Assembly: GCF_017983445.1 (NCBI RefSeq)
Contig: NZ_JAGOBJ010000005.1
Span: 280,585-344,584, forward strand
Source: Halomonas sp.
Lineage (GTDB): Bacteria; Pseudomonadota; Gammaproteobacteria; Pseudomonadales; Halomonadaceae
Length of the DNA: 64,000 nt
Reading direction: 5' to 3'
The position numbers and the translations under genes were made by a program. The notes under the pieces were generated by a model. That model had not been told where the DNA came from. It searched no databases and worked only from the letters and a program-made list of their open reading frames with translations. Shown here one piece after another: positions 46,681 to 63,226 of the stretch (within the stretch, counting starts at the first letter, position 1; each line of letters starts with the position of its first letter).

Positions 46681-49600
46681 TTACATCAATGCGCCCTGAG
46701 CATCTTCCTGTACCCCGCTGATGCTGACATCGTCGCTGAGTGCCGCTACCTCCTCATCAAGGTAAGAAGCATCATTCGCTTCAGAGGCCATGGCCATCAT
46801 CAGACCCACGCTCGAAGCGCTGGCCGCTTCTGTGCCAGCATCGCGAGTGATCTGGAAAGATGCCAGATCCATGGAGCCGCCGTTGAAGGTAATGCGCAGA
46901 ACCTGAACGCCCTCTTCCAAGTCCAGCGTCAGCGAGGGGCCATCGACATACACACCCCAGTCGCCGGAGTTAGGTACCGAGCCGCTGGCCTGCGCATAGA
47001 AGCCTCCGTTCTGCTCAACCGCCGCGGTGATGGTACGCCCATCGTCGGGGCTTGAGGTAACGAACGATAGGGTATGACTTCCCGCCTGCTCGACGTTAAT
47101 GGTGTACTCTAGCCACTCGCCTTCATCCACCCAGCCGACGGCCTCTCCTTCACCGACGATATCCACACCGTCGCCGGGGCGAACTTCTGTGCCGATCTGG
47201 TAGGCATCCGCGTCATTGTAGGCAACTCCCTGGCCACCCTCATCGTAATTCACCGCATCGAGTGTCAGCCCTTCGTTGGCATCCACTAGCCATGGCGTTC
47301 CCTCGGCATTGAACGCCTGCTGTCCATCGCGCGACAGAGTGAACGAGGCCAAGTCCATCGATCCACCGTTGAACGTAAGCCGCAGCACCTGCTCGCCTGC
47401 TTCAAGCGCGACCTGAGAAGCATCGGTGGGCTGGAAGTTACCCCAGCCGCCGGTTGGTGATACCACTACCGGGCCGCTTGATGCGTAGGACATACCGTCT
47501 CCCTGGGTAAAGGTGGCCGTGATGCTGCGCTGAGAGCCGCCAGCGTCGCCGAGTGCTGACAGGAAGGACAGGTCATAAACACCGGCCTGCTGAATGTTGA
47601 GCGTGTACTCTACCCATTCACCTTCATCCACCCAGCCAATAGCATCGCCATTGCCTACGATATCCACGCCATCACCGGGACGCATCTCGGTGCCGATCTG
47701 GTAGTCATCGGCATCGTTGTAGGCGACACCCTGGCCTCCCTCGTCATAGTTCGCGGCCTTGAGGCTGAAGTTGCCGCCTACTAGCCATGCCTCGCCATTG
47801 GGGGTGAAGGCACGCTGACCGTCGTCTACGGGAGCTTCGTCTACTGCCAGCGTAAAGCCTGTCTGAACGCTGGCCTGGCCATCAGAGGCCGTAACGATAA
47901 TGTCGAAGCTTCCCGCTGCAGTAGCCGTCCCGGAGAACACGCCGTCCGAGGACATGGATATTCCGCTGGGCAGACCACTGGCGGTATACGTCAAGCTATC
48001 ACCATCGGCGTCGATAAACGCATCGGCAGGCAGGCTGAAGCTGATTGCCTCGCCTTCCACCAAGGCGACGTCGTCAATGCCTGCTTCTACCACCGGCGCC
48101 TGGTTTGCGGGCGTCTGATCGACGGGCGCCAAGTTGAACGAGGCCAGATCCATCGACCCACCGTTGAAGGTAAGCCGTAGCACTTGCTCGCCAGCCTCAA
48201 GCGCTACCTGCGTGGTAGCGGTCGGGGTGAAAGTCGTCCAACTGCCGGTGGGTGACACCCCTACCGGCGAAGCCGTGACATAAGGCATATCCCCCTTGGC
48301 AAAGCTTGCGGTAATCGAACGGGCAGCCGAATTGGTCGACGCCATGGAGGTCAGGAAGCCGAGGTCGTAAACACCGTCTTCCGCTACGTTGATGGTGTAT
48401 TCCACCCACTCACCGTTCTCTATGAAGCCGATTGCCTGTGAGGGAGTGGAGATATCCACCCCTTCGTCGGAGCGGAAGGAGCTGCCTTGGTGGGCGGCAT
48501 CCGAGTCGTTATAGGCAACGCCCTGACCGCCGTTATCATAGAAGCGTGCTTCCAGAGTCAGCCCATCGGCACCCACTTCCCAGGCCGTCTGGGTATCGTT
48601 GTAAGCACTCTGGCCATCGTCGGCAGGCGCTACAAAGTCGAGGTTGAACGAGGCCAGATCCAACTGGCCGCCGTTGAAGGTCAGCCGCAGTACTTGCTCT
48701 CCTTCCTCCAGCTCGAAGGTCAGCGGACCCACGGTCTGGAAGCTGGTGAAGCTGCCGGTATTGGGAAGGTTTTGTACCTGTGCCGGGGTGTAGAAGCCAC
48801 CATCCTGCTCGAACGCGGCCGTAATGGTCTTGCCGCCGCTAGTCGCCGAGGTTGAGAAGCTCAGCGTATAGGTACCCGCCGTTTCCACGTTCAGAGTGTA
48901 CTCGACCCATTCACCGTCAGCGATGTAACCCAGCGCCTCGGTGCCGATCGATATGTCCACCGCCTCGTCGGAGCGGAACGACGCCCCCTGATGGCCTGGC
49001 GTGGTGTCGTTATACGCTACGCCCTGGCCACCGTTGTCATACAGTTTCGCTTGTAGCGCCAAACCTTCGCTGCCCACCACCCAGGCAGTCTCACTCGCAT
49101 TAAAGGCGGTTTGACCGGTTGGTTCAGGGTTATCGAGGAAGTTCGGAATGCCGTCGTTGTTATCGTCGTCGTACAGATCCACTCGGCCATTGCCATCAGC
49201 ATCTTCCGCCCCTGCCGGGTCATAGGGAGTAACGTTCTCCACCAGGAAGATGTTGTCGTTGTAGTCGTAGTTCACCCCGGCATAGTCCTGAATCACGATA
49301 TAGGTGTCCGGAATGACGTTGCCCGCAGCGTCCTTGGCGATATACACGCGAATCAAATGGCCGTCATTGGCGTCCCAGTTAAGGTTGGTGCCCGGGTTAC
49401 CAATGGCATCAACGGTGTCCTCGTAGAGGTTGGCATCCGGGTCGGACCAGGAAATGTAGCCCTGACGACCCGATATCTCAGCGAAGAAACCAAACGGCGC
49501 ATCGCGATCCAGGGTGGTGGTGGTCAATTGATTGCCGTTGTTGAGCGTGCGCGGCAATAGCGTCTGACCATCCGCCTCGTCGTGGGCCAGAATTTCATCA

Positions 49601-52600
49601 CGGTTGCGGCTATCCACATCGTGGATGAACAGTCGGGCCACGTCACCTTGAGTGTGATAGGCCGCCAGCTGGGTGATCTTGATCGGCGAGCTGCCCTCAG
49701 CACGCTGGAAGTACGGTGCCAGAATTTCATCGCCGTTGGCTTCCACCAGACCACCCTTGTTCATCTGTCCTTCGGCCACATTGGTGGTATAGCCGAAGGC
49801 GTTGATAATTTCCTGGACCAGAGGTTCCTGGCCGCTTTCAGACTGGTTCTGAGCCAAGCCCGCAAGCTGGATGACCTTCTCGCCCTCGTCGGCATCGCTT
49901 GAAGTGATGATAAGGCTCGCCTCATAGAGGCTTGCATCGTTGGGGTCATTGGCGATAAAGCGCACCGTCACATCAATGGCCTCACCCGGCTCCAGCGTTA
50001 CCGCTGAGAAGGCCTGGGTAAGTTCGAACAGCGTCGTATCACTGACCTCAATGCCATTGATATCCAGGGCCTCGAAACCATCGTTTCTGAGCGTGATGGT
50101 CACTTCGTCGTGCACCACCTGCGCGGCGTTGGCCGGGTTTTCGATACGCGACATCACCAGGCGATCATTGGACGGCACGCCGTCGTTATTGATCACTGTA
50201 AGCTCACCACCGGTTACCGGCGTCACGCCCTCAATGAGGAACATGTTGTCGTTGTAGTCGTAGTTGATACCGGTGTAATCCATGATGCCCAGATAGGTAT
50301 TGGGAATCACGTTACCGTTGGCATCCAGCGCCCGGAACATGCGCACGGTGTAGCCGCGCTCGATACCCTCGGCATCGGCCGGTGGCGTACCGCCCCCTTG
50401 AGGGTTCAGCGATGGGTCGGTGGACAGGTTGGCCACCTCAATACCAAACACGCCCTGGCCGGCCCAGCTGCCGGGAATATCGGCAAGCGAGAAGCTCGCA
50501 GTGGAGAACTGCCCATCGCTTTTCACCGGTAGCAGGGACTGGTTGTTATCCCCCGCATGGTTGCTGAAGATGATGTCCTGGTTTTTATTACCCGGATTAT
50601 GGATACCCAACGTCGCACCGCCATCGCCATGGTAGGCCGCCAGTTGAGTAATCTTGGCCTCCCCGGCACCGTCCGCCAATGCCCAGTAACGCGACATGAC
50701 TTCATCATCGTTGACGGGACGATACAGATCGAAATCGTTGAGCACCGAGTTCTCGCCGCCGCCCACCGTGGTTAGGCCATCAATACGGTTACCAAAGCCG
50801 AACACTTCCCATACTTCATTGACGTTGGGTTCCCAGCCGCCTTCATCACGCGCCTGCCAGAAGCCTGCCATATGAATTTCGGCAACCGGCGAATCAGCAT
50901 CGTTTGTGACCAGACGAATACGGCCTTCGAATACACCGTCACCCGCGTCGTTGGTAGGCGCCGTGTAGCTGGCACGGTCAAACAGCACCGTTACTTCGAG
51001 CGACTGTCCGGCGGCAAGCGTCAAGCCTTCAAAAACGCTGGGATCTTCCAGCACGAATGGGCCTTCGATATCGGCATCGAGTATCTGCAGGACATCACTG
51101 CCGGTGTTGGAAATGGTGACCGTAGCGCTTTCCTTGAAGTCGCGATTGGTGTTCGAGGCGCTGTTATTCTCCAGATAGCTGAAGTGCAGCCGATCAGAGA
51201 AATAGGCAGCATCGCCGCTTTGTACTGCGATATCGGCGTTGTCGTTGCCAGCGACCGGCGTTACGTCCAAATAGTCCAGATCATCGGCACCATCGGCCGT
51301 AGAAACTGCACGCAGGTTGTACTCCACACCTGCTTTGAGTTCGACATAAGCGCCCTCTTCGCCAGCCTCTCCCACGCCCGGGTAGGCCAGTACTTTAACC
51401 GCCTGCCCGTTGAGGGTTAGGGTCAGCCCCTGACCATCGTCGCCCCCGGCATTCGCCGCCAAGTCAAGGCGATAGAGACCGTCGGCATCGACCGTGAAGT
51501 AGAAGTCGGCGGTCAGCTCATTGATGGTGCGGGCACTGTCGCCGCTCTCAAGCTCGATACGTGACCCATCCGAAACGTCGGCATACACCGGAACAAAGTT
51601 ATCGGTCGGCGCATTCGGCACCTTCAGCAGGTCGATATTGGGGCCCACGGCGTTTGGCGCGGTCAAGGTGATGGTATTGCTGCCCGCCTGCAGGGTGACC
51701 AACGCGTTCTGGAAGAACCAGTTATCCTCGGCGGCGTTGCTTTGGCCTTCAAAGTTCAACTGCCCCAGATCGACGCCGTTGATAGTCAGGCCCAGCGGGC
51801 GGTCGGCCTTGGCCGCGCCCAGAGCGTAGCGGAAGCCGATGTCATAGCTGCCCGCCTCGCTGACATCAATGGTCCAGGTAATCGTCTGGTCGCCCGTTCC
51901 ATCAAAGTCGACGAAGCCGTCACCGGAGGCGTTGCGGTCATCGTTGCTGGCCAGTACTACCACCGCGCCATCAAGCGTCGCGCCTTCGGCTTCATACTGG
52001 GTCACGTCCGGCGTGGTATCCGGCTCACCCCGCAAGATCTCCAACTGATCGATATTGGGGCCGGTATTGGCGGTGGCTTGCAGGCGCACCGTGTTCTGAC
52101 CACTGACCAGCGTGGCTGCCACATCTTCAGTCAGCCATTCGGCCCAGGCCGCATCACCGGTTAGCCCTGGCGGTGGGCTGAAGTCGAATACACCGACACT
52201 GACGTTATTGACGAACACCTCAAGCGGACGGTTGGCATCGCCGCCATTGGCGTAGCGCAGCCTCAACACCGATTCGCCAGCCTGAGCGGCGCTCAGGTCG
52301 AACGTAAAGGTGAGGAAGTCGACGTTGGTGGAACCGAAGTCGGCATAGCCACCCAGAACACCGTCGTTATCGTTGGTATTGCCATCCACACCGAAGGATC
52401 CTGGGCGCAGGCCGTTGGGCAGGCCCTCGGTGGTTTCGCGGTTATCGACATCGCGGATCTGGATCTGGGCGCCTGCTCCCGTCGCAATCGTCACTGCGGT
52501 GCCATCATCCGGCGTCTTATCTTCAGCCTGAATGATCAGCAGCGATTCCAAATCACCTGGTTCGGGATCAACTGGATCCACCACCCCACCCGGCGCCGGG

Positions 52601-55600
52601 TCTAAGCGAATGATCTGGCTCTGGCCATTACCACGGTTCAGCGTCAGCAAATAGAGCTGACCGGTAACCGGGTTCTCGATAATATCCAGCGGGTCAACGT
52701 AACTGATTACGTTGCCGTTGGGGTCGCGCAGCACGTCATCACCAATCACATTGCCGTTAGCATCCAGCGTGATTGAGCGAATGTCGTCACCTCCCGAGTA
52801 CTCGGTGAACAGCACATTACCTTGCAGGTTGCCGCCGAACACACCACTGGTGTACTCCACCGCGCCGTTGGGTGAACGGTTCTCGCCAAGCGAATAAACA
52901 CCAGAGATATCGTAGGTGCCCTCTGGGTTAGTGCCTACCGGATAGCGGTCAACCTGGTTGGGGTCGCTGCCGCCCGTCGGATTACCCCCATTCATGATGT
53001 ACTCATCGCGCAGCGGATTGGGATGACCGTAGTAGCCCCCTTCAACGATCTTGAACAGATAGTCGTCTTGTTTCTCGACGTTGGTGTAACGCTCGTTTTC
53101 AGGCGTCGAGGGATCGTCCGGCACGTTGCCGCCCGCCGCCGATCCGTTTGTCGGCACATAGAGGAAGCCATTGGAGTGCCATACCAGGTCATAAGCGTTC
53201 CGTGCCCCGGTGGCAAAGATCGTCAGCACCGCGTCTTCGGCGTAGGGGTCGTAGAAACTCTGAAGCACGTTACCGTCAGCATCCTGCACCGTGGCGACAC
53301 CACGCTCGTCAAACACCAGGAATTCACCGTTGCCCATGGGGATCGGATCATCCTTGGGATGGCCGTCGGGGTCATCGTAGCGCGTGTTCTGGCCGTTATT
53401 GGGTACCGGTTCGGTGGAGACATCAAAGCCCCCAGGAGGCGCGTCGCGCGTCGGATCGATTTCCATCACGGCGGCGTTCAGCAAACGCTCGGGTCGGTTG
53501 CCCCAGGCGCTATCCGGTTCGCCCATGGCCGAGTTGGAGCCTTGAATCAGATACAGCAGATGCGTCGGCACGTCGGGGTTGGTGGCCGCGTCATAGTCTG
53601 GGTTGGCGCGGAACTCGAGGCTATTGGTCACGTGATCGCCGTTGGAGCGCGGCAGACCGGTAATGTAGGGTTCAGCGACACCCGAGAAGTCACTACCGCC
53701 ATCCAGAGTGATCTTGGTGACGCGACCGCTGAACTCCGGCACGCCGTTATCGCGCCCGTTGAGCGGGATCGGATAGTTGTCGGTGATCCACAGCACGTTC
53801 GAATCGGTGGGATCGACCGTCAAGCCAATAATACCCCGCCGGTCGTTACCGCTTTCAACGCCGGCTTCGAAGAAGTAATCGCTTGGCAACGAAAGTTCTT
53901 GGCGGTTAACCAGCGAGCCGTCGCTGGGGTCGATATCAAAGCGCAGGATCTGCCCACCAATGGTCGCCACGTACATGGTCGAGCCGTCGGAGGTAATCTC
54001 AAGCGACGTGAATCCAAAGGCGTTGTCTGCGGCGCCGTTGAGTTCAACTACATCGTTGAAAGCTACATCGCGGGGAACCACCTCCGGCGCCTCACCGGTC
54101 ACGAAGGTGTTGGTGTACTTCTGGAACTCACGGGTCGGCGCCGAAGCGTCATCGTTGGGGCCACGGTCCTGGAAGCCGTCAATCACCAGGGTATAGCTGG
54201 TGAACGGTTTGAGCATGCCGCTGGGCGAAATCGTCAACGAGTCAAAACCGCCGGTCGTATTGACGTTGAAGGAAACTTCCTCGCCGGTGACCGTTTCAAA
54301 CAGCTTCACAGAGCCGTCGTTAAGGCTCTCAAGCAAGGCGCCGCCACGCCCGTCGACCACCGAAATACCCACGAAAATATCCGAGGTTGGATCAACGCCG
54401 GTAGGGATAGCACCATCTTCAGGGTCAAGATCAACCTCGACCTCGTTTTGCCCGACACCGGCAATGGCCCGCGCGTCGGTAAAGAAGGCGTAGTCCTCAG
54501 GAGCTGCACGGCCATCATTAGGGGTTAGGTCCGGCAGCGACTGAATCTCGATATACTGGATCTCGGTGTTCTCGTTATCCAGCCCCATGGAGTCCAGCGT
54601 CAAGCGGCCGTCGGTAACCTGTACGATACGAGTCACCAGGTCGGAGCGTGCGCCTTCAGTGTCGTCGCCCGGGTTGTTATCCACCGGGAAGTCATCTGGC
54701 CGGAAAGGCGTGAAGGGGTCGTTGAACAGTTCGCCCTCTGCATTGATCACATTGCGGCTGTCGTAAGGGCCTGAGGTATCACCAATCGAAATGGTGACCT
54801 CGTAATAGCCATCTTCAAGCTCGATCTCCCAACCGGCACGCACATAGTTACTTCCAGGCTGGTCAAAATGGGCATAGGTGCCCTGGCGTGGGTCGAGACC
54901 GGCAATATCTCCGGTACGGTCATTGACCGCCACGTTGGTCAGCTCGCTAATATCCAGCGGCGTCGTGCCGGGCTCATCGTCATAGATCGACGCTTCCGTT
55001 ACCCAGCCGTATTGATACGTCTGGCCGTCAATCGTCACCGACTGGGTGCCGAACGCCTTGCCGTTATCGGCAATATAGCCCTCGGGTACCGCGACACCCT
55101 CAGGCTGGAAGTTGATCTTGACCGAGAAACGGTCAATGGGCTCGACCACCGGTGGCGGCTCAAAACCCTCGCGCGTCACGCTGAGGCTATCGATGTTGGG
55201 GCCTGAGTTACCAACGTTCTCCAAACGAATGGTGTTGCTGCCTGCCTCAAGCTCAACCTCTATCGTGGCGTCCGTCCAGTTCTGCCATCCAGCGGCATCA
55301 ACACCGGTCGCGGCAAAGGCAATGCTTCCCTGGGACACACCACCAATCAATATATCCATGGGCCGGTCGGCACCATTTCCGCCTGCGTTGGCATAGCGAA
55401 CCGTCAGAGTGTAAGTACCAGCTTCCTCAACCGCGACGTCGAAGAAGGCCGCATCACCGGCTTCATTACCCATATCGAGATAACCGGTACCGGTATAGCC
55501 ATCCCATAGCCCATCAGGGCCCGCCTCTGCGTTGGTTTCAGGGTTGCTAGCGTCACGAACGACTGTATCAGGGGTCGGCTCATCATCATCGATAGTCAGC

Positions 55601-58600
55601 GCCTCGCCCTGAATCTCGAAGGCAAACGGTGCAGGAGGCGTTTCGCCATCGTTGAAGTCGAATACGATCTGGTCAATGTTGGGGCCATTAGCCACACCAC
55701 CGTTGGCCGCCGTGGGGATCGTCAGCGTTAACGTATTGGCGCCCTCTTCGAGCGTGACCTGTATTTCCTGCTCAAGCCACGCATCCCAAGGGTCGTTGAC
55801 GCCATCGTTAGGTGCATTGGCAAAGGCAACCTGGGGCTGGCCTGCGCCATTAACCGCCAGATCCAATGGCCGAGGCGCGGTTCCACCGTTGGCATAGCGG
55901 ATGGTGGCGGTGTAGGTGCCAGCGGAAGGCGCATCAATGTTAAATGTGACCTGGTCGCCCGCATCGGTGCCGAAATCCATATAGGCACCGCCTACCGCAC
56001 CTTCCCGATAGTTACCGAAATCATCAGGATTGTTCGCATCCACCGCACGTGTCACGGCCCCCTGGGCGGTGCCACCCACGTCGGTCACGATCGCGTCCTC
56101 CCCTTGCAGAGTAAACGACTCGATCACGTCGTTGGTGTCGTCTTCACTTACGCTGCCGGTAGCCGTGGCCGCAGCGCTATCGATCACAAAGCCTTCACCC
56201 GTGGCGCCGGTAAGCGTCACTGCGACCGTTTCAGTGCCGTTGTCCTCGTCATCGTTGGCCACATCGACCGCTAGCGTCGCGACACCATCGGTAAAAGTAA
56301 CCGTGCGAGTTTCGGTAACGCCGTCAATGTCGAGCGCAAGTTCTACATCGCCGCTGAAAGCATCCGAGGCACTCAAAGCGAAGTTCAGCGTGGTGACACC
56401 CGTGTCACCATTTTCAACCATCGAGTCGGCATCGGTAATTCCTAGCAGAATGGTGGGCTCAGGATCGACGCTGCCAGTAGGCACAAACTCGAAGTAGTCG
56501 ATACGCGCGTACTCAAGCGCGGTCGAATTGGCGCTGAGTGAAAGTGTGGCGCCATCACCTACGGTCACATCCGTGAAGGTGACGGTACGGAAGTTTTGGA
56601 TCTGAGTACCGTTACCGCTTTCGGCGTCGTCATCGAATACCCAGCTGCCGCTGAAGCTTTCGCCTTCGGCGTTGCCGATGCTCAGCTGGGCGGTACTTTC
56701 ACCATCATTTTCGTCGATATAGCCGACGATCACGGTGTAGGTGCCCGCGGGCACCTTGCCATCCAGCGAATAGCTTGCGGTGCCTTCACGGCTGCCGGGC
56801 ATGCGAATCGCCTGACCACCGTCGGCGGCTGCAATATTCTCAACGGTGAAGGTGGTTGCGCTGTCAAAATCTTCCGCCTGCAGGCGGATGGGTTCGCCAG
56901 GTGTCGCACCACCATCGTCTTCACTGATGCTACCGGTAGCCGTCGCCGCGGTGCTATCGATCGCGAAGCCCTCGCCCGTAACGCCGGTCAGGGTCACTTC
57001 GATCGTGTCGGTACCGTTGTTCTCGTCATCGTTGGCTACATCGACGGCTAATGTGGCGACACCGTCGGTAAAGGTGACCGTACGGGTCTCGGCGGCGCCA
57101 TCAATGTCGAGGGCCAGTTCCACATCGCCACTGAAAGCATCCGAGGCACTCAAGGCGAAGTTCAGCGTGGTGACACCCGTGTCACCATTTTCAACTATCG
57201 GATCGGCATCGGAGATGCTTAACAGAATATTAGGGTCAGGGTCGACGCTGCCGGTAAGCACAAACTCGAAGTAGTCGATACGCGCGTACTCAAGCGCGGT
57301 CGAATTGGCGCTCAGTGACAAAGTGGCGCCCTCGCCTACGGTTACGTTGGTAAAGCTGACGGTGCGGAAGTTTTGGATCTGAGTGCCGTTACCGCTATTG
57401 GCGTCATCATCGAATACCCAGCTGCCGCTGAAGCTTTCACCTTCTGCGTTGCCGATGCTCAACTGGGCGGTGCTTTCGCCGTCATTTTCGTCAATATAGC
57501 CGACGATAATGGTATAGGTGCCCGCGGGCACCTTGCCATCCAGCGAGTAGCTCGCGGTGCCTTCGCGGTTCCCAGGCATGCGAATCGCCTGACCACCGTC
57601 GGCGGCGGCAATATTCTCAACGGTGAAGGTGGTTGCGCCATCGAAATCTTCTGCCTGTAAGCGGATTGGGTCGGCGGGAACGACAAGTTCTTCATCATCT
57701 TCGCTGACGCTGCCGGTAGCCGTGGCTGCAGCGCTGTCGATAGCGAAGCCATCACCCGTGGCGCCGGTAAGCGTGACGGCGACCGTCTCTGTGCCATTGT
57801 CTTCAGCATCGTTGGCGACATCGACCGTGAGCGTCGCGACGCCGTCGGTAAAGGTAACCGTGCGGGTTTCGGCGACGCCGTCAATGTCGAGCGCAAGTTC
57901 TACATCGCCGCTGAAATCATCCGATGCGCTTAAGGCGAAGTTCAGCGTGGTCACGCCTTCGTCACCGCTCTCTATAATTGGATCGGCATCCGCGACACTT
58001 AGCAGAACGGTAGCGGCTGGCGGCGCCGCTTCCAGTAACGCTACCTCGATCTTATCGATATTGGGGCCATTGGTACCGCCGCCCAGGCGCAGGGTGTTGC
58101 TGCCTGCGTCAAGCGTGATCTCAATGGTTTCGGTGGACCAGCCTTCCCATTCGGTCTGGCGGGTCGGATTGCCGCTAGTGGGTGCTGCAGGCTGGTTGGC
58201 CGTAGGTACATCGCTAACGTCATCCGGGTAGTAACCGGGCTCCGCCGTTGCGGCAAAGTTAAACGTACCTAATGGTGTGGTCGTATCACTGTCGACCAAG
58301 GAAAGATCCAATGGGCGCCCAGAGCTGCTTGCATAGGTCACCGTCACGCTGTAAGTACCGGCGGTCGCGACCTCCAGCGAGAACTCACCATATGCATTAG
58401 CATTGTTTAACGCCCAATCGAGATAGCTTGCGCCCTCGGCGCCTACCCGGAAGGTCTCGCTACCGTTCGTAAAATCGGCAATGTTGTCAACGGTCACTAC
58501 CCGATTGGTTGCGCTATTGTCGTTATCAACCGTTGGAGAAAGCACCAGGTCTTCTCCCTGAATCACATAGACGTCAGGATTTGGCGCGCGCACTTCCAGA

Positions 58601-59487
58601 TAGTCGACGTTGGGTCCGCTGGCGCCGTTTGACGTAAAGGTGACGGTGTTCTCACCGGCCTCAAGCTGCACACGAATGGTACGCTCGCCAAATTCGCTGA
58701 AATCAGTGGGAGTAGCATTCAGCGTGGTGCTGGGAAGATCGAACATACGATCCACCAGCTCGCCGTTAACGTCCAGGCGCAGGGGGCGGTTTCGATCAGA
58801 GCCGTCATCATTCTGACTAAGCGCATAGCCCAGCCCTAACTCGTACTCTCCCGCTTCAGCAACGCTGAATGTGAACGTCAGCGTTTCGCCGCCGTTGATA
58901 CCATCGCCATAGTCTACATAAGCCTGACCATCGGCATTGACGGCATTGGGCTGCAGAACGGGGTCGCTAACCACGTTAATGCCAGGGCCCGAAATAACCC
59001 CCCAGGCGCCATCACTCGCATCGGCATCCTCGGCCTGTATGCGCAGTGGAGAGAAGGAGTCGGGCGTTACGGCCAAAGCGGCCATCGGGCTTTCATCCAC
59101 CTGTAATAACACTGTTTCAGCGGCTGGTTGCTCAATGGGGTCACTCTCTGCCGCCACAACAAGCTGAATGTCCATATCCGAGCCGGGTAATACCTGACCA
59201 GACGCATCCAGCGCTTCAAGGCGAAGCCTTAACATTCCCAAGGCAGGCGTGGGTAAATCATCAAAAACAAATGGATGCTCAAAGCTCTCAAATGTTGAGA
59301 TCTCGTTGCGGCCATCTTCCCAGACCATCCTTAGTGAATGGATAGACGACTCCCAAGCAGAGGCATATGGCGTCACGTGTAGTTGGTTGTCATGGAAGGC
59401 ATCCGTGCCAAAGCGATCTCCTTCATTAATACTAATGAAACCCTGCAGAGTGTTCGCTTGGCCGGCAAAAAATGACATTGAATACAT
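46681..59487 (-). CDS. Giant (4,268-aa) multi-domain type I-secreted carbohydrate-binding protein
   Basis: This uninterrupted gene makes a very acidic protein with no Sec signal. Approximate domains: N-terminal cap 1-145; two CBM-like sandwiches 146-485; three Calx-beta plus CBM pairs 490-1283 (Calx-beta strand LNFALSASDAFSGDVELALD); CBM 1290-1446; malectin-like 1452-1653; Ig-like 1656-1800; glucose/sorbosone dehydrogenase-like propeller 1820-2303; two CBMs 2315-2630; two anchor modules ending in YDYNDN 2756-3423; Ca-binding DADGNGRVDLYDDDNNDG near 3430; two CBM6, one Ig, two CBM6 3460-4213; acidic tail. GPNID at CBM ends recurs. The divergent ABC transporter and fusion protein point to type I secretion, but RTX repeats are not seen. 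Probably an exopolysaccharide-binding surface or matrix protein. Confidence 0.9.
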   Translation of the reverse strand: MYSMSFFAGQANTLQGFISINEGDRFGTDAFHDNQLHVTPYASAWESSIHSLRMVWEDGRNEISTFESFEHPFVFDDLPTPALGMLRLRLEALDASGQVLPGSDMDIQLVVAAESDPIEQPAAETVLLQVDESPMAALAVTPDSFSPLRIQAEDADASDGAWGVISGPGINVVSDPVLQPNAVNADGQAYVDYGDGINGGETLTFTFSVAEAGEYELGLGYALSQNDDGSDRNRPLRLDVNGELVDRMFDLPSTTLNATPTDFSEFGERTIRVQLEAGENTVTFTSNGASGPNVDYLEVRAPNPDVYVIQGEDLVLSPTVDNDNSATNRVVTVDNIADFTNGSETFRVGAEGASYLDWALNNANAYGEFSLEVATAGTYSVTVTYASSSGRPLDLSLVDSDTTTPLGTFNFAATAEPGYYPDDVSDVPTANQPAAPTSGNPTRQTEWEGWSTETIEITLDAGSNTLRLGGGTNGPNIDKIEVALLEAAPPAATVLLSVADADPIIESGDEGVTTLNFALSASDDFSGDVELALDIDGVAETRTVTFTDGVATLTVDVANDAEDNGTETVAVTLTGATGDGFAIDSAAATATGSVSEDDEELVVPADPIRLQAEDFDGATTFTVENIAAADGGQAIRMPGNREGTASYSLDGKVPAGTYTIIVGYIDENDGESTAQLSIGNAEGESFSGSWVFDDDANSGNGTQIQNFRTVSFTNVTVGEGATLSLSANSTALEYARIDYFEFVLTGSVDPDPNILLSISDADPIVENGDTGVTTLNFALSASDAFSGDVELALDIDGAAETRTVTFTDGVATLAVDVANDDENNGTDTIEVTLTGVTGEGFAIDSTAATATGSISEDDGGATPGEPIRLQAEDFDSATTFTVENIAAADGGQAIRMPGSREGTASYSLDGKVPAGTYTVIVGYIDENDGESTAQLSIGNAEGESFSGSWVFDDDAESGNGTQIQNFRTVTFTDVTVGDGATLSLSANSTALEYARIDYFEFVPTGSVDPEPTILLGITDADSMVENGDTGVTTLNFALSASDAFSGDVELALDIDGVTETRTVTFTDGVATLAVDVANDDEDNGTETVAVTLTGATGEGFVIDSAAATATGSVSEDDTNDVIESFTLQGEDAIVTDVGGTAQGAVTRAVDANNPDDFGNYREGAVGGAYMDFGTDAGDQVTFNIDAPSAGTYTATIRYANGGTAPRPLDLAVNGAGQPQVAFANAPNDGVNDPWDAWLEQEIQVTLEEGANTLTLTIPTAANGGVANGPNIDQIVFDFNDGETPPAPFAFEIQGEALTIDDDEPTPDTVVRDASNPETNAEAGPDGLWDGYTGTGYLDMGNEAGDAAFFDVAVEEAGTYTLTVRYANAGGNGADRPMDILIGGVSQGSIAFAATGVDAAGWQNWTDATIEVELEAGSNTIRLENVGNSGPNIDSLSVTREGFEPPPVVEPIDRFSVKINFQPEGVAVPEGYIADNGKAFGTQSVTIDGQTYQYGWVTEASIYDDEPGTTPLDISELTNVAVNDRTGDIAGLDPRQGTYAHFDQPGSNYVRAGWEIELEDGYYEVTISIGDTSGPYDSRNVINAEGELFNDPFTPFRPDDFPVDNNPGDDTEGARSDLVTRIVQVTDGRLTLDSMGLDNENTEIQYIEIQSLPDLTPNDGRAAPEDYAFFTDARAIAGVGQNEVEVDLDPEDGAIPTGVDPTSDIFVGISVVDGRGGALLESLNDGSVKLFETVTGEEVSFNVNTTGGFDSLTISPSGMLKPFTSYTLVIDGFQDRGPNDDASAPTREFQKYTNTFVTGEAPEVVPRDVAFNDVVELNGAADNAFGFTSLEITSDGSTMYVATIGGQILRFDIDPSDGSLVNRQELSLPSDYFFEAGVESGNDRRGIIGLTVDPTDSNVLWITDNYPIPLNGRDNGVPEFSGRVTKITLDGGSDFSGVAEPYITGLPRSNGDHVTNSLEFRANPDYDAATNPDVPTHLLYLIQGSNSAMGEPDSAWGNRPERLLNAAVMEIDPTRDAPPGGFDVSTEPVPNNGQNTRYDDPDGHPKDDPIPMGNGEFLVFDERGVATVQDADGNVLQSFYDPYAEDAVLTIFATGARNAYDLVWHSNGFLYVPTNGSAAGGNVPDDPSTPENERYTNVEKQDDYLFKIVEGGYYGHPNPLRDEYIMNGGNPTGGSDPNQVDRYPVGTNPEGTYDISGVYSLGENRSPNGAVEYTSGVFGGNLQGNVLFTEYSGGDDIRSITLDANGNVIGDDVLRDPNGNVISYVDPLDIIENPVTGQLYLLTLNRGNGQSQIIRLDPAPGGVVDPVDPEPGDLESLLIIQAEDKTPDDGTAVTIATGAGAQIQIRDVDNRETTEGLPNGLRPGSFGVDGNTNDNDGVLGGYADFGSTNVDFLTFTFDLSAAQAGESVLRLRYANGGDANRPLEVFVNNVSVGVFDFSPPPGLTGDAAWAEWLTEDVAATLVSGQNTVRLQATANTGPNIDQLEILRGEPDTTPDVTQYEAEGATLDGAVVVLASNDDRNASGDGFVDFDGTGDQTITWTIDVSEAGSYDIGFRYALGAAKADRPLGLTINGVDLGQLNFEGQSNAAEDNWFFQNALVTLQAGSNTITLTAPNAVGPNIDLLKVPNAPTDNFVPVYADVSDGSRIELESGDSARTINELTADFYFTVDADGLYRLDLAANAGGDDGQGLTLTLNGQAVKVLAYPGVGEAGEEGAYVELKAGVEYNLRAVSTADGADDLDYLDVTPVAGNDNADIAVQSGDAAYFSDRLHFSYLENNSASNTNRDFKESATVTISNTGSDVLQILDADIEGPFVLEDPSVFEGLTLAAGQSLEVTVLFDRASYTAPTNDAGDGVFEGRIRLVTNDADSPVAEIHMAGFWQARDEGGWEPNVNEVWEVFGFGNRIDGLTTVGGGENSVLNDFDLYRPVNDDEVMSRYWALADGAGEAKITQLAAYHGDGGATLGIHNPGNKNQDIIFSNHAGDNNQSLLPVKSDGQFSTASFSLADIPGSWAGQGVFGIEVANLSTDPSLNPQGGGTPPADAEGIERGYTVRMFRALDANGNVIPNTYLGIMDYTGINYDYNDNMFLIEGVTPVTGGELTVINNDGVPSNDRLVMSRIENPANAAQVVHDEVTITLRNDGFEALDINGIEVSDTTLFELTQAFSAVTLEPGEAIDVTVRFIANDPNDASLYEASLIITSSDADEGEKVIQLAGLAQNQSESGQEPLVQEIINAFGYTTNVAEGQMNKGGLVEANGDEILAPYFQRAEGSSPIKITQLAAYHTQGDVARLFIHDVDSRNRDEILAHDEADGQTLLPRTLNNGNQLTTTTLDRDAPFGFFAEISGRQGYISWSDPDANLYEDTVDAIGNPGTNLNWDANDGHLIRVYIAKDAAGNVIPDTYIVIQDYAGVNYDYNDNIFLVENVTPYDPAGAEDADGNGRVDLYDDDNNDGIPNFLDNPEPTGQTAFNASETAWVVGSEGLALQAKLYDNGGQGVAYNDTTPGHQGASFRSDEAVDISIGTEALGYIADGEWVEYTLNVETAGTYTLSFSTSATSGGKTITAAFEQDGGFYTPAQVQNLPNTGSFTSFQTVGPLTFELEEGEQVLRLTFNGGQLDLASFNLDFVAPADDGQSAYNDTQTAWEVGADGLTLEARFYDNGGQGVAYNDSDAAHQGSSFRSDEGVDISTPSQAIGFIENGEWVEYTINVAEDGVYDLGFLTSMASTNSAARSITASFAKGDMPYVTASPVGVSPTGSWTTFTPTATTQVALEAGEQVLRLTFNGGSMDLASFNLAPVDQTPANQAPVVEAGIDDVALVEGEAISFSLPADAFIDADGDSLTYTASGLPSGISMSSDGVFSGTATAAGSFDIIVTASDGQASVQTGFTLAVDEAPVDDGQRAFTPNGEAWLVGGNFSLKAANYDEGGQGVAYNDADDYQIGTEMRPGDGVDIVGNGDAIGWVDEGEWVEYTLNIQQAGVYDLSFLSALGDAGGSQRSITATFTQGDGMSYASSGPVVVSPTGGWGNFQPTDASQVALEAGEQVLRLTFNGGSMDLASFTLSRDGQQAFNAEGTPWLVDANEGLTLDAVNYDEGGQGVAYNDADAYQIGTEVRPGDGVDIVGEGEAVGWVDEGEWLEYTINVEQAGSHTLSFVTSSPDDGRTITAAVEQNGGFYAQASGSVPNSGDWGVYVDGPSLTLDLEEGVQVLRITFNGGSMDLASFQITRDAGTEAASASSVGLMMAMASEANDASYLDEEVAALSDDVSISGVQEDAQGALM
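56400..57970 (-). repeat. Near-identical 777/780-bp in-frame tandem repeats
   Basis: Anchor points recur with an offset of 777 bases (56465 and 57242; 56405 and 57182), and the next Calx-beta motif follows at 780 (57962). Each unit encodes a Calx-beta plus one CBM-like domain (259-260 aa). The two complete CBM copies are almost the same in DNA, so recent duplication or gene conversion is likely. Outer limits are approximate. Confidence 0.8.
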
Positions 59488-60119: not shown

Positions 60120-61889
60120 ATGTCGAAGCCATCCAAAGATTCAGATCTCAAGAAGGTGCTGAATACCTGCAGGCAGAGCTTTATCTACGTTGGGCTGTTC
60201 AGTTTGTTTATCAACTTACTGATGCTGGTTCCACCGCTTTATATGCTGCAGGTGTATGACCGGGTTATTACCACGCGCAGCCAGGAAACCCTGCTGATGC
60301 TGACTCTGGTCGTGGTGTTCCTGTTTGTAGTGATGGGTGGGCTTGAGTTAATGCGCTCTCGAATCCTGGTGCGGGTTGGCAACCGGCTTGATGTGCTGAT
60401 TAGCCAGCGGCTTTATTCCGCGATGTTCAAACGCACTCTGATGATGCCCGGCAAGCCTTCGGCTCAGCCGTTGAATGATCTTACAACGCTGCGTCAGTTT
60501 CTTTCCGGCAACGGTCTGTTCGCGTTTTTTGATGCGCCTTGGGTGCCTATTTATATCGCCGTTCTGGCGATGTTTCATCCATGGTTCGGGTTGTTCGCTC
60601 TGGGGGCCGGCCTTATCCTGGCGACATTGGCCATCATCAACGAGGTTATTACCAAATCGCTATTAAACGATGCCAATAGCCAGCATGTGCTCGCCCAAGA
60701 CTTAGCCAACAGCAACCTTAGAAACGCCGAAGTACTTCACGCCATGGGGATGCTGCCCGGCATCATGGGGCGCTGGAGCGCGCGGCATCGCGAATACCTG
60801 GTTCTACAATCCAAAGCCAGTGACCGTGCCGGTGTGATAACCAACACTTCTAAAGTGCTCAGGCTGATGTTCCAGTCGTTGATTCTAGGCCTGGGCGCTT
60901 ACCTGGTACTGGCCGGCGATTTGACACCGGGCATGATGATTGCCGGGTCTATCCTGATGGGACGCGCGTTGGCGCCTATCGATCAGATGATCAATGGTTG
61001 GAAGGGCTACTCCGGCGCCCGCACCGCAAGAGCCCGCCTTGAAGAGTTGTTGAATACCATTCCGGCGGAAGAACCGCGGATGCCGCTTCCCAAGCCTAAA
61101 GGGCGCCTCGTGCTGGAAGGCGTTACGGCAGCACCTCCCGGGCAGAAGCTCGCAACGCTGCGCGATATCAATCTGGTGCTGGCCAAAGGCGAGCACCTGG
61201 CCGTCGTTGGCCCCAGCGCGTCAGGCAAGACGACGCTTGCCCGCGTAGTACTGGGCATCTGGCCAAGCCAGTTTGGGTGTGTGCGCCTCGATGGCGCCGA
61301 TATCACCCAGTGGAACCGCGCAGCGTTAGGCACCCATATTGGTTACCTGCCTCAGGATATCGAACTGTTCGATGGCACCATCTCCGAGAATATCGCCCGC
61401 TTTGAAGAGGTAGATCCTCAAGCGGTGGTGCTCGCGGCCCAGCGAGCCGGGGTGCATGAAATGATTCTGGAGCAACCCAGCGGGTATGACACCTGGCTTG
61501 CCCATGGCGGCAACGCGCTATCGGCAGGTCAGCGCCAGCGCATCGGCCTGGCACGAGCGCTATATGGCCAGCCCGTACTGATAGTGCTGGATGAACCGGA
61601 TGCCAACCTGGATGAAGCGGGCGAGCAATCGCTCGCCAACTGTTTGATCCGCCTTCGCCAGGAGGGCACTACGGCCCTGATCATTACCCATCGTTCCCGC
61701 CTGCTCAATAACGTCGATAAGGTTCTGGTACTCAGAGACGGCCAGATATCCTCACTCAAACCACCTACCCAAATGGCGCCCGTGACGAGGATGACGGCCG
61801 ATGGAAGTCGCCCCGTGCCACCCCAGCGCGTGGCCGCGTTAAAGCCTAGCGCACGCGGTCGTAATAGCAGCGAGGACACCTCATCATGA
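60120..61889 (+). CDS. Type I secretion ABC transporter permease/ATPase (PrtD type)
   Basis: 589 aa. The membrane domain (about 20-310) begins LNTCRQSFIYVGLFSLFINL, typical of PrtD/RsaD/LapB-like exporters without a C39 peptidase domain. The ATPase domain has Walker A GPSASGKTTLAR near 365, Q-loop GYLPQDIELFDGT, signature LSAGQRQRIGLARALYG near 468 and Walker B VLIVLDEPDANLD. It should export the giant protein with the fusion protein encoded next (ATGA overlap). No TolC-type gene is in the window. Confidence 0.94.
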   Translation: MSKPSKDSDLKKVLNTCRQSFIYVGLFSLFINLLMLVPPLYMLQVYDRVITTRSQETLLMLTLVVVFLFVVMGGLELMRSRILVRVGNRLDVLISQRLYSAMFKRTLMMPGKPSAQPLNDLTTLRQFLSGNGLFAFFDAPWVPIYIAVLAMFHPWFGLFALGAGLILATLAIINEVITKSLLNDANSQHVLAQDLANSNLRNAEVLHAMGMLPGIMGRWSARHREYLVLQSKASDRAGVITNTSKVLRLMFQSLILGLGAYLVLAGDLTPGMMIAGSILMGRALAPIDQMINGWKGYSGARTARARLEELLNTIPAEEPRMPLPKPKGRLVLEGVTAAPPGQKLATLRDINLVLAKGEHLAVVGPSASGKTTLARVVLGIWPSQFGCVRLDGADITQWNRAALGTHIGYLPQDIELFDGTISENIARFEEVDPQAVVLAAQRAGVHEMILEQPSGYDTWLAHGGNALSAGQRQRIGLARALYGQPVLIVLDEPDANLDEAGEQSLANCLIRLRQEGTTALIITHRSRLLNNVDKVLVLRDGQISSLKPPTQMAPVTRMTADGSRPVPPQRVAALKPSARGRNSSEDTSS

Positions 61890-63226
61890 ATATGCCCAAG
61901 CCCCCCGGTCTTAACATGCCGTCAGCGGCAAACGATGAACTACCGCTTGAAGATAAGCGCTACCGACGGCTAGGTATCGTTATCCTCATCATTGCCGTGG
62001 GCGGTTTTGGCAGCTGGTCGGTATTCGCCAACCTGGCCGTCTCGGTGGTTGCGCCAGGCTCTGTCTCGGTCGAGAGCTTTACCAAGACGGTGCAGCATTT
62101 GGAAGGCGGCATCGTCGAGCGCATCCTGGTTGAGGACGGTGACCACGTTGAAGCGGGCGATGTCTTGATGGTGCTTGACGATACCCAGGCGCGCTCTCAG
62201 CTGCAGGTCACTCGTTCTAACTATCTGATTAGCCGGGCGACCGAAGTGCGCCTTCTGGCTGAGTTAAGCGACGCCGAGACGCTTAATTTTCCTGAGGATC
62301 TGACCGCATCCGACAACCCACGGGTTCAAGAAGTAATGGATGTCCAACGCCGTTTATTTGACTCCCGCCGCGAATCTTTATCCAGCACCCTGGCCTCGCT
62401 AGATGAGCAGATTGTGCAGATGAACGAGCAGATAGAAGGCTTGACCAATACTCAGAACATCAACCAGCGGCGCATAAGTTCACTCGAAGGTGACGCGGCC
62501 AGCCACCGCCAACTGTTTCAAAGGGGCATGATCAGCAGTCAGAGAATGCGTGAACTGGAACGTGAGAGTCTGGAGTACCAGAGCTTCAACGCTCAACATG
62601 CATCTGAAGTTGCCCGCCTGCACTCTCAGATTAGTGAAAACGCGCTGCAAAGGCAGGTCCGACTGCAGGAGTTTCAGCAACAGGTAGGCGAGGCGCTGCG
62701 CCAGACCCAGACCGAAGTTGCCGATGCTGAAGAGCGTCTGAGTGCGCTTCTGGATAAGGTAAACCGCACCCAGGTACTGGCGCCGGTTTCCGGCACGGTG
62801 GTAGGCCTGATGGTGCATACGCTGGGAGGCGTTATCCGCTCTGGCGACCCGCTGCTTGATATTGTGCCGACTAATGTCGGCTTCATTATTGAGGCCAAAG
62901 TGGCTGACCATGATGTCGATCACCTTTACATAGGTCAGCCGGCGGAAATTCGCTTCAGCGCTTTCAACCAGCGTTTATCCAATGTCATCGACGGCGAAGT
63001 TATCCACGTAAGCGCCAACAGCTTCGAGGATGAGGCTACCCGGGCACGTTATTACAAGGTCCGCTTGCGTGTGACCAGCGCCGGTGAAGAAAACATGACC
63101 GAGTCCATGAAGCTACTCGCCGGTATGCCTGCTGAGGTGATGCTACGAACGGGGGAAAGAAGTTTTTCCAGCTACATCGCAAAACCTTTGACCGACATGC
63201 TGGCCCGTGCCATTCGTGAAGATTAA
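61886..63226 (+). CDS. Type I secretion membrane-fusion protein (HlyD/PrtE family)
   Basis: 446 aa with one N-terminal membrane helix (about 30-52), a lipoyl-type beta segment VQHLEGGIVERILVEDGDHV near 75-95, long coiled coils at about 145-290 (SLDEQIVQMNEQIEGL; LRQTQTEVADAEERLSAL), then the second lipoyl half and beta-barrel (APVSGTVVGLMVHTLGG). It bridges the ABC transporter to an outer membrane TolC. The start overlaps the transporter stop by four bases. Confidence 0.94.
   Translation: MNMPKPPGLNMPSAANDELPLEDKRYRRLGIVILIIAVGGFGSWSVFANLAVSVVAPGSVSVESFTKTVQHLEGGIVERILVEDGDHVEAGDVLMVLDDTQARSQLQVTRSNYLISRATEVRLLAELSDAETLNFPEDLTASDNPRVQEVMDVQRRLFDSRRESLSSTLASLDEQIVQMNEQIEGLTNTQNINQRRISSLEGDAASHRQLFQRGMISSQRMRELERESLEYQSFNAQHASEVARLHSQISENALQRQVRLQEFQQQVGEALRQTQTEVADAEERLSALLDKVNRTQVLAPVSGTVVGLMVHTLGGVIRSGDPLLDIVPTNVGFIIEAKVADHDVDHLYIGQPAEIRFSAFNQRLSNVIDGEVIHVSANSFEDEATRARYYKVRLRVTSAGEENMTESMKLLAGMPAEVMLRTGERSFSSYIAKPLTDMLARAIRED

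Follow-up and report, generated by a model that had tools for sequence, protein, structure and literature searches.

A giant CBM6/CBM35-rich protein of Halomonas beside a divergent PrtD-type exporter: a probable exported, polysaccharide-binding matrix or surface protein

What is the function of a bacterial gene of 12.8 kb whose product lacks cysteine, and by which route might this product leave the cell? The window (the whole stretch of 64,000 nucleotides of Halomonas sp. DNA analysed here) contains one continuous frame on the minus strand (46681..59487), and its reading in the initial annotation as a single protein of 4,268 aa was confirmed. The product (449 kDa, pI 4.05) has 0 Cys (∼41 expected at the Cys frequency of the remaining frames of the window, a background that includes chance frames), 0.7% lysine, and 697 Asp and Glu versus 161 Lys and Arg residues. 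Judged by sequence comparison it is no chance frame, since giants exist in other Halomonadaceae and core homologues in alphaproteobacteria. Lengths of the 22 fully read Halomonadaceae giants, that of the window included, span 2,489 to 5,263 aa, and one homologue carries the label 'carbohydrate-binding protein' at NCBI.

Module borders were taken from internal repeats of the protein and from Pfam profile matches. The N-terminal domain is followed by two modules ending in GPN[IV]D, three accessory repeats interspersed with two RLQAED modules, two further GPN modules and the core; after the core come two GPN modules, a stretch without match, two units of Ig plus DYNDN domain, four CBM6 modules of which the second and third are separated by a He_PIG domain, and the tail. 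The features, from the N-terminus, are:

59098..59487 (-), N-terminal domain, aa 1-130; kept in Halomonadaceae with M[YF] at its start; no family match
58576..59070 (-), CBM35/CBM6-type module 1, aa 140-304; ends GPNVD; alone below Pfam cut-offs
58030..58578 (-), CBM35/CBM6-type module 2, aa 304-486; CBM_6 29.1 bits, cut-off 28.9
57700..58014 (-), accessory repeat 1, aa 492-596; previously called Calx-beta, not confirmed
57253..57672 (-), RLQAED module 1, aa 606-745; lectin-like by eye, no Pfam family above cut-off
56920..57234 (-), accessory repeat 2, aa 752-856; internal repeat
56476..56895 (-), RLQAED module 2, aa 865-1004; lectin-like by eye
56143..56457 (-), accessory repeat 3, aa 1011-1115; internal repeat
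55648..56136 (-), CBM35/CBM6-type module 3, aa 1118-1280; CBM_6 43.9 bits
55153..55650 (-), CBM35/CBM6-type module 4, aa 1280-1445; CBM_6 41.4 bits, CBM_35 37.6 bits
54652..55125 (-), core domain 1, aa 1455-1612; no Pfam match, malectin-like only by eye
54223..54654 (-), core domain 2, Ig-like, aa 1612-1755; Big_5 in relatives, no match in the window itself
52513..54105 (-), beta-propeller with predicted GSDH (glucose/sorbosone dehydrogenase) fold, aa 1795-2325; conserved core
52027..52485 (-), CBM35/CBM6-type module 5, aa 2335-2487; alone below Pfam cut-offs
51607..52029 (-), CBM35/CBM6-type module 6, aa 2487-2627; CBM_35 36.1 bits
51268..51609 (-), segment without family over the cut-off, aa 2627-2740
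50215..51270 (-), unit 1, HYDIN/ASH-type Ig plus DYNDN domain, aa 2740-3091; model pLDDT 84
49213..50211 (-), unit 2, laid out as unit 1 (Ig plus DYNDN), aa 3093-3425; by internal likeness
48640..49152 (-), CBM6 module 1, aa 3446-3616; CBM_6 52.3 bits
48127..48642 (-), CBM6 module 2, aa 3616-3787; best CBM_6 stretch of the giant
47848..48120 (-), He_PIG Ig-like domain, aa 3790-3880; 67.2 bits, cut-off 24
47332..47850 (-), CBM6 module 3, aa 3880-4052; by likeness to the other three CBM6 modules
46846..47334 (-), CBM6 module 4, aa 4052-4214; CBM_6 47.3 bits
46684..46845 (-), C-terminal tail of 54 aa; candidate uncleaved type I signal

Over the whole giant, Pfam CBM_6 scored 231 bits in 8 stretches (cut-off 28.9) and CBM_35 scored 84 bits in 3 stretches (cut-off 28). 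About eleven beta-sandwich repeats with GPNID ends had been described; GPN[IV]D was found six times, and the lectin-like modules total ∼12 (6 + 2 + 4). Among solved chains, 2vzp (exo-beta-D-glucosaminidase) matched the GPN pair at aa 1118-1445 best, module 4 giving an E-value of 7.7e-18. A Trp and a base Asn are binding signatures common to the families, with an Arg patch in CBM35, in the cited part of PMC9843283. With positions equated by eye, the putative binding residues Asn and Arg are present in 6/6 GPN modules and Trp in 5/6. All four CBM6 modules apparently carry Asp at the place of the base Asn of CBM6 (by eye), which counts against a polysaccharide-binding role. The above-threshold CBM6 and CBM35 scores, together with the binding-type residues kept in the GPN modules, nevertheless support the earlier proposal of a sugar-binding surface or matrix protein, and the domain reading by HMM search stood for the CBM6 and CBM35 modules.

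It did not stand for Calx-beta. The three 105-aa repeats are genuine (the second is 81% and the third 85% identical to the first), but 0 of the 12 members of the repeat family matched Pfam Calx-beta at E<=5. Accessory repeats were found in 6 of the 29 proteins compared; with no Calx-beta match, and with the repeats missing from the other 23 proteins, Calx-beta is lost as an argument for type I export. From their sequences, the three repeats are accessories within the family. Residues 641-800 recur at aa 900-1059 with 91% identity (57253-57672 and 56476-56895 in the window), a likeness that is likely due to a recent tandem duplication of an RLQAED module plus repeat.

The route out of the cell was approached from the signals of the giant and from its neighbours. 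Within its first 70 residues the maximum 15-residue mean hydropathy is 0.8, and a hydrophobic N-terminal stretch is absent; the sequence thus gives no sign of a Sec signal, in agreement with the previous reading. The ABC transporter and fusion protein reported at 60120-63226 were verified by family profiles, and both genes are divergent from the giant gene:

60120..61889 (+), type I secretion ABC transporter of the PrtD type, 589 aa; TIGR01842 748 bits, cut-off 510
61886..63226 (+), HlyD-type adaptor, 446 aa; TIGR01843 382 bits, cut-off 209

The transporter aligns end to end with 5l22 (7e-161), starting at residue 4, and with the PrtD model from residue 15; a C39-like domain is absent from its 589 aa. 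The PrtD-type class is known mainly for the export of moderately sized cargo such as proteases and lipases. An N-terminal C39-like domain is tied to many RTX exporters and missing from HasD and PrtD, as described in the cited part of PMC8277102. We found 0 matches to the RTX pattern GG.G[NDS]D.[LIVFY] in the giant, a single GG.G.D, and no Pfam RTX match at E<=1. The pattern of the C-terminal tail is present in 21 of the 22 giants. At the giant locus no TolC-type gene was found; three TolC-type proteins over the cut-off are encoded at other places of the genome, two next to further type I systems, and the TolC-type gene at C6:28579 is followed by an RND-like efflux pair (by eye).

We then examined how constantly giant and exporter occur together. 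The near-genome set (n = 58) comprised 37 genomes of the genus (own included) and 21 others of the order. The giant core was present in 9/37 and 0/21 of these genomes, respectively, and in 2/369 genomes of a class-wide sample (own included). An exporter orthologue (at least 82% identity) lies beside the giant, in divergent orientation, in seven of the nine giant-bearing genomes of the genus, and was found in one of the 28 giant-less ones (G032), on a 5.7-kb contig whose end cuts the gene, with no giant found. The two remaining giant-bearing genomes (G002 and G008, the latter being locus L103) have a giant without linked exporter, and an exporter of 66-67% identity elsewhere in the genome. In one contig scan, whose genomes overlap with the genus set (L073 and G022, for example), a PrtD homologue lies beside the giant in 22/31 loci. 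No exporter was seen beside the giant in L086 and L103; L095 and L099 lie at a contig edge, where pairing is not judgeable; and in the Rhodobacteraceae loci L096-L098, L100 and L101 no exporter of at least 38% identity was found in the stretch available, which contig ends cut in L096-L098. Thirteen plasmid records matched the core; seven annotated neighbourhoods were viewed, and two further records had no usable annotation. On three alphaproteobacterial plasmids, one of Salipiger and two of Rhizobium, the homologue has type I genes next to it, in arrangements and directions unlike that of the window; none are annotated near the homologue in Yoonia, Deinococcus, Hymenobacter and Halobellus (L107, L118, L120 and L121; 4/7 neighbourhoods). 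On the SUF side, G022 and G036 have the same neighbours as the window and G005, G033, G011 and G013 have different ones, so within the genus the cassette is found in several genomic settings.

Export by the adjacent type I system, as proposed in the initial annotation, is strongly supported by the family assignment and the conserved pairing, which as sequence evidence stop short of proof. Because of this pairing, the cargo features and the tail, we suggest that the giant leaves the cytoplasm via the divergent PrtD/HlyD-type system and a TolC encoded elsewhere, guided by a C-terminal signal. Outside, the many CBM35/CBM6-type modules would bind polysaccharide at many points simultaneously, multiple lectin contacts along the chain being expected from the modules and their residues, and the giant might cross-link or coat an exopolysaccharide matrix or a polysaccharide surface. 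To this explanation as a whole, that of a matrix or surface protein with multivalent polysaccharide binding, PrtD/HlyD export and a reused propeller, we assign a probability of roughly two in three. The giants without linked exporter (L086, G002 and G008/L103) count against it, as do the Rhodobacteraceae and plasmid loci at which no exporter was seen, the exporter of G032 with no giant found, and the locus itself, beside which no exopolysaccharide gene was recognised in an unsystematic look.

By analogy, the Rap lectins and glycanases exported via PrsDE in Rhizobium leguminosarum appear to be the nearest working analogue, PrsD belonging to the PrtD class. The likeness lies in type I export and lectin character. 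The lectin RapA2 binds the acidic exopolysaccharide of its own cell in a calcium-dependent manner and has a role in shaping the matrix (cited part of PMC5061743). PrsD-dependent proteins include cadherin-like ones of 61 and 95 kDa, and the predicted cargo of PrsDE comprises at least 13 proteins unlike one another (cited part of PMC2275737); in Halomonas a single exporter is paired with a single CBM6/CBM35 giant of 449 kDa.

The giant adhesins LapA and BapA are also giant repetitive type I cargo beside their own exporter, and LapA-type giants act as tethered adhesins. The Halomonas giant could likewise be an adhesin for polysaccharide surfaces, kept at the outer membrane through an N-terminal anchor not recognised as such, and the conservation of the N-terminal domain and a LapG-family protease encoded in the same genome (C1:312592) speak for this. 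The exporter differs, however, being of the PrtD type without C39-like domain, and no TolC-type gene lies at the locus. The N-terminal domain gave no NCBIfam or Pfam match, including to the LapA/BapA retention module, a model of which is presumably contained in the scanned profile library, and it is variable (42% mean column identity). Compared with the adhesin-like protein of the same genome described below, its best match was 10 residues (E 1.6). BLAST also found no such domain in five alphaproteobacterial giants, a weaker argument, as BLAST missed it as well in Salinicola, where alignment finds it. We consider a tethered adhesin rather unlikely. Since RTX repeats are absent, the giant was not filed as an RTX protein, nor as a LapA/BapA protein, since its transporter differs and a retention module was not detected; its mismatch with the LapA and RTX layouts had been remarked on before and holds. 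As a separate observation, the same genome encodes at C7:112000-131000 (L115) a Cys-free, adhesin-like (by eye) protein of 2,598 aa with its own type I exporter and TolC.

BapP of Pseudoalteromonas tunicata combines a propeller with cadherin-like and BIg domains and has neighbouring type I-like genes (PMC12153261). It resembles the giant in propeller, Ig-type domains and type I-like neighbours, and no LapA retention module was found in it; it differs in length (1,600 aa), in its N-terminal propeller and in a predicted Sec signal, and the cited part of PMC12153261 does not mention a CBM array. Among the literature matches listed, the combination of a giant CBM array, a GSDH-fold core and a PrtD-type exporter without RTX was absent. 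The parts and the principle of export are already known, and the combination seems new among those matches.

The dehydrogenase-like propeller claimed earlier is supported by the predicted structure: the core propeller was assigned a GSDH fold, with AA12 entries among the structure matches, in a comparison that used the untrimmed model, which is poor (mean pLDDT 57.7, and <50 over much of propeller residues 648-822). The propeller of the window gave no Pfam GSDH match at E<=0.05, and the best relative (L117) reached 23.2 bits (cut-off 25); Big_5 scored above cut-off for the Ig-like domain of the core in L117, L118 and L119. The propeller motifs Gly-Asp-His, Arg-Asn and Gly-His-Pro are invariant across 22 core sequences, and six distant relatives all have the His, while Arg-Asn is present in all five whose sequence extends over that site. 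This would fit an extracellular sugar-oxidising enzyme, in which an active GSDH/AA12-like propeller is anchored on the polysaccharide it oxidises by the lectin modules. Against such an enzyme, the RIRDV stretch of GSDH enzymes, whose Arg pair we take to hold PQQ, aligns to a stretch of the giant that ends in YVDPLDI and lacks the Arg; its Asp-Pro-Leu-Asp is invariant (22/22 core sequences). The PQQ synthesis gene pqqC was found in 0 of the nine giant-bearing genomes searched and PqqE gave no match over cut-off in the own genome, although scavenged PQQ or another cofactor is conceivable. Lack of pqqC is no distinguishing mark of the giant-bearing genomes within the genus (6/28 giant-less congeners have the gene).

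An oxidising enzyme is thus unlikely. As pqqC is absent from all nine giant-bearing genomes searched, the propeller, lacking RIRDV and embedded in a lectin-like chain, probably binds a ligand and does not act as an oxidase, its site being reused from a sugar dehydrogenase. The giant is like the GSDH/AA12 PQQ sugar dehydrogenases and HHIP in its propeller fold and in the His and Arg-Asn motifs; HHIP is a non-enzymatic user of the GSDH-type fold, and HHIP entries among the structure matches have titles naming complexes with hedgehog proteins and heparin. The Persicobacter plasmid frame L117 contains two GSDH-like propeller copies within one chain.

A hydrated protective coat, as proposed for halomucin-like giants, with sugar binding secondary, would suit a very acidic, Cys-free and Lys-poor chain and hosts of which many are halophiles, but is very improbable given binding-type residues kept in 5-6 of the 6 GPN modules and a core also present in Rhizobium from soil.

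If the polysaccharide-binding reading is true, the cargo of PrtD-type exporters extends to RTX-free chains of ∼2,500 to 5,300 residues, a point of relevance to the way in which very long chains are pulled through type I systems; a candidate matrix glue is named for Halomonas and its kin; and the natural gains and losses of modules could be used for tests of lectin specificity. More tentatively, RTX-free giant lectins with their own C39-less PrtD-type exporter might form a distinct class, a three-gene cassette passed between Halomonadaceae and alphaproteobacterial plasmids, with the former PQQ propeller as an obligatory polysaccharide-reading or chain-joining centre; this wider proposal is possible but doubtful.

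Among the seven nearest relatives, identity of the propeller is 85-99%, while the accessory modules vary in presence. In L073 the core is 98% identical, yet there is no RLQAED module and one accessory repeat. The L083 transporter is 89% like that of L073 and 69% like that of L085, and its core is 81% like L085 and 79% like L073; from the sequences, these mixed affinities look like recombination. In Halomonas litopenaei a second PrtD/HlyD pair lies behind the giant (L078, 17956-22660; L079, 18934-22106; PrtD 56 and 62% identical), in L078 accompanied by the beginning of another core homologue (52% over 217 aa); these are perhaps two giant-exporter units in tandem. Two related giant frames adjoin near one exporter in Salinicola halophyticus (L093, 8123-19224), and in Halomonas olivaria TYRC17 (L094) the giant gene is fragmented into numerous frames and that of the transporter is shortened, due to sequencing error or decay. 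Many congeners carry a second PrtD/HlyD system of ∼65% identity (L050-L056), near sugar-nucleotide genes (by eye). Close to some of these exporters there are frames of 779-793 aa and 1,520-1,583 aa with 0 or 1 Cys, which are possibly another cargo set.
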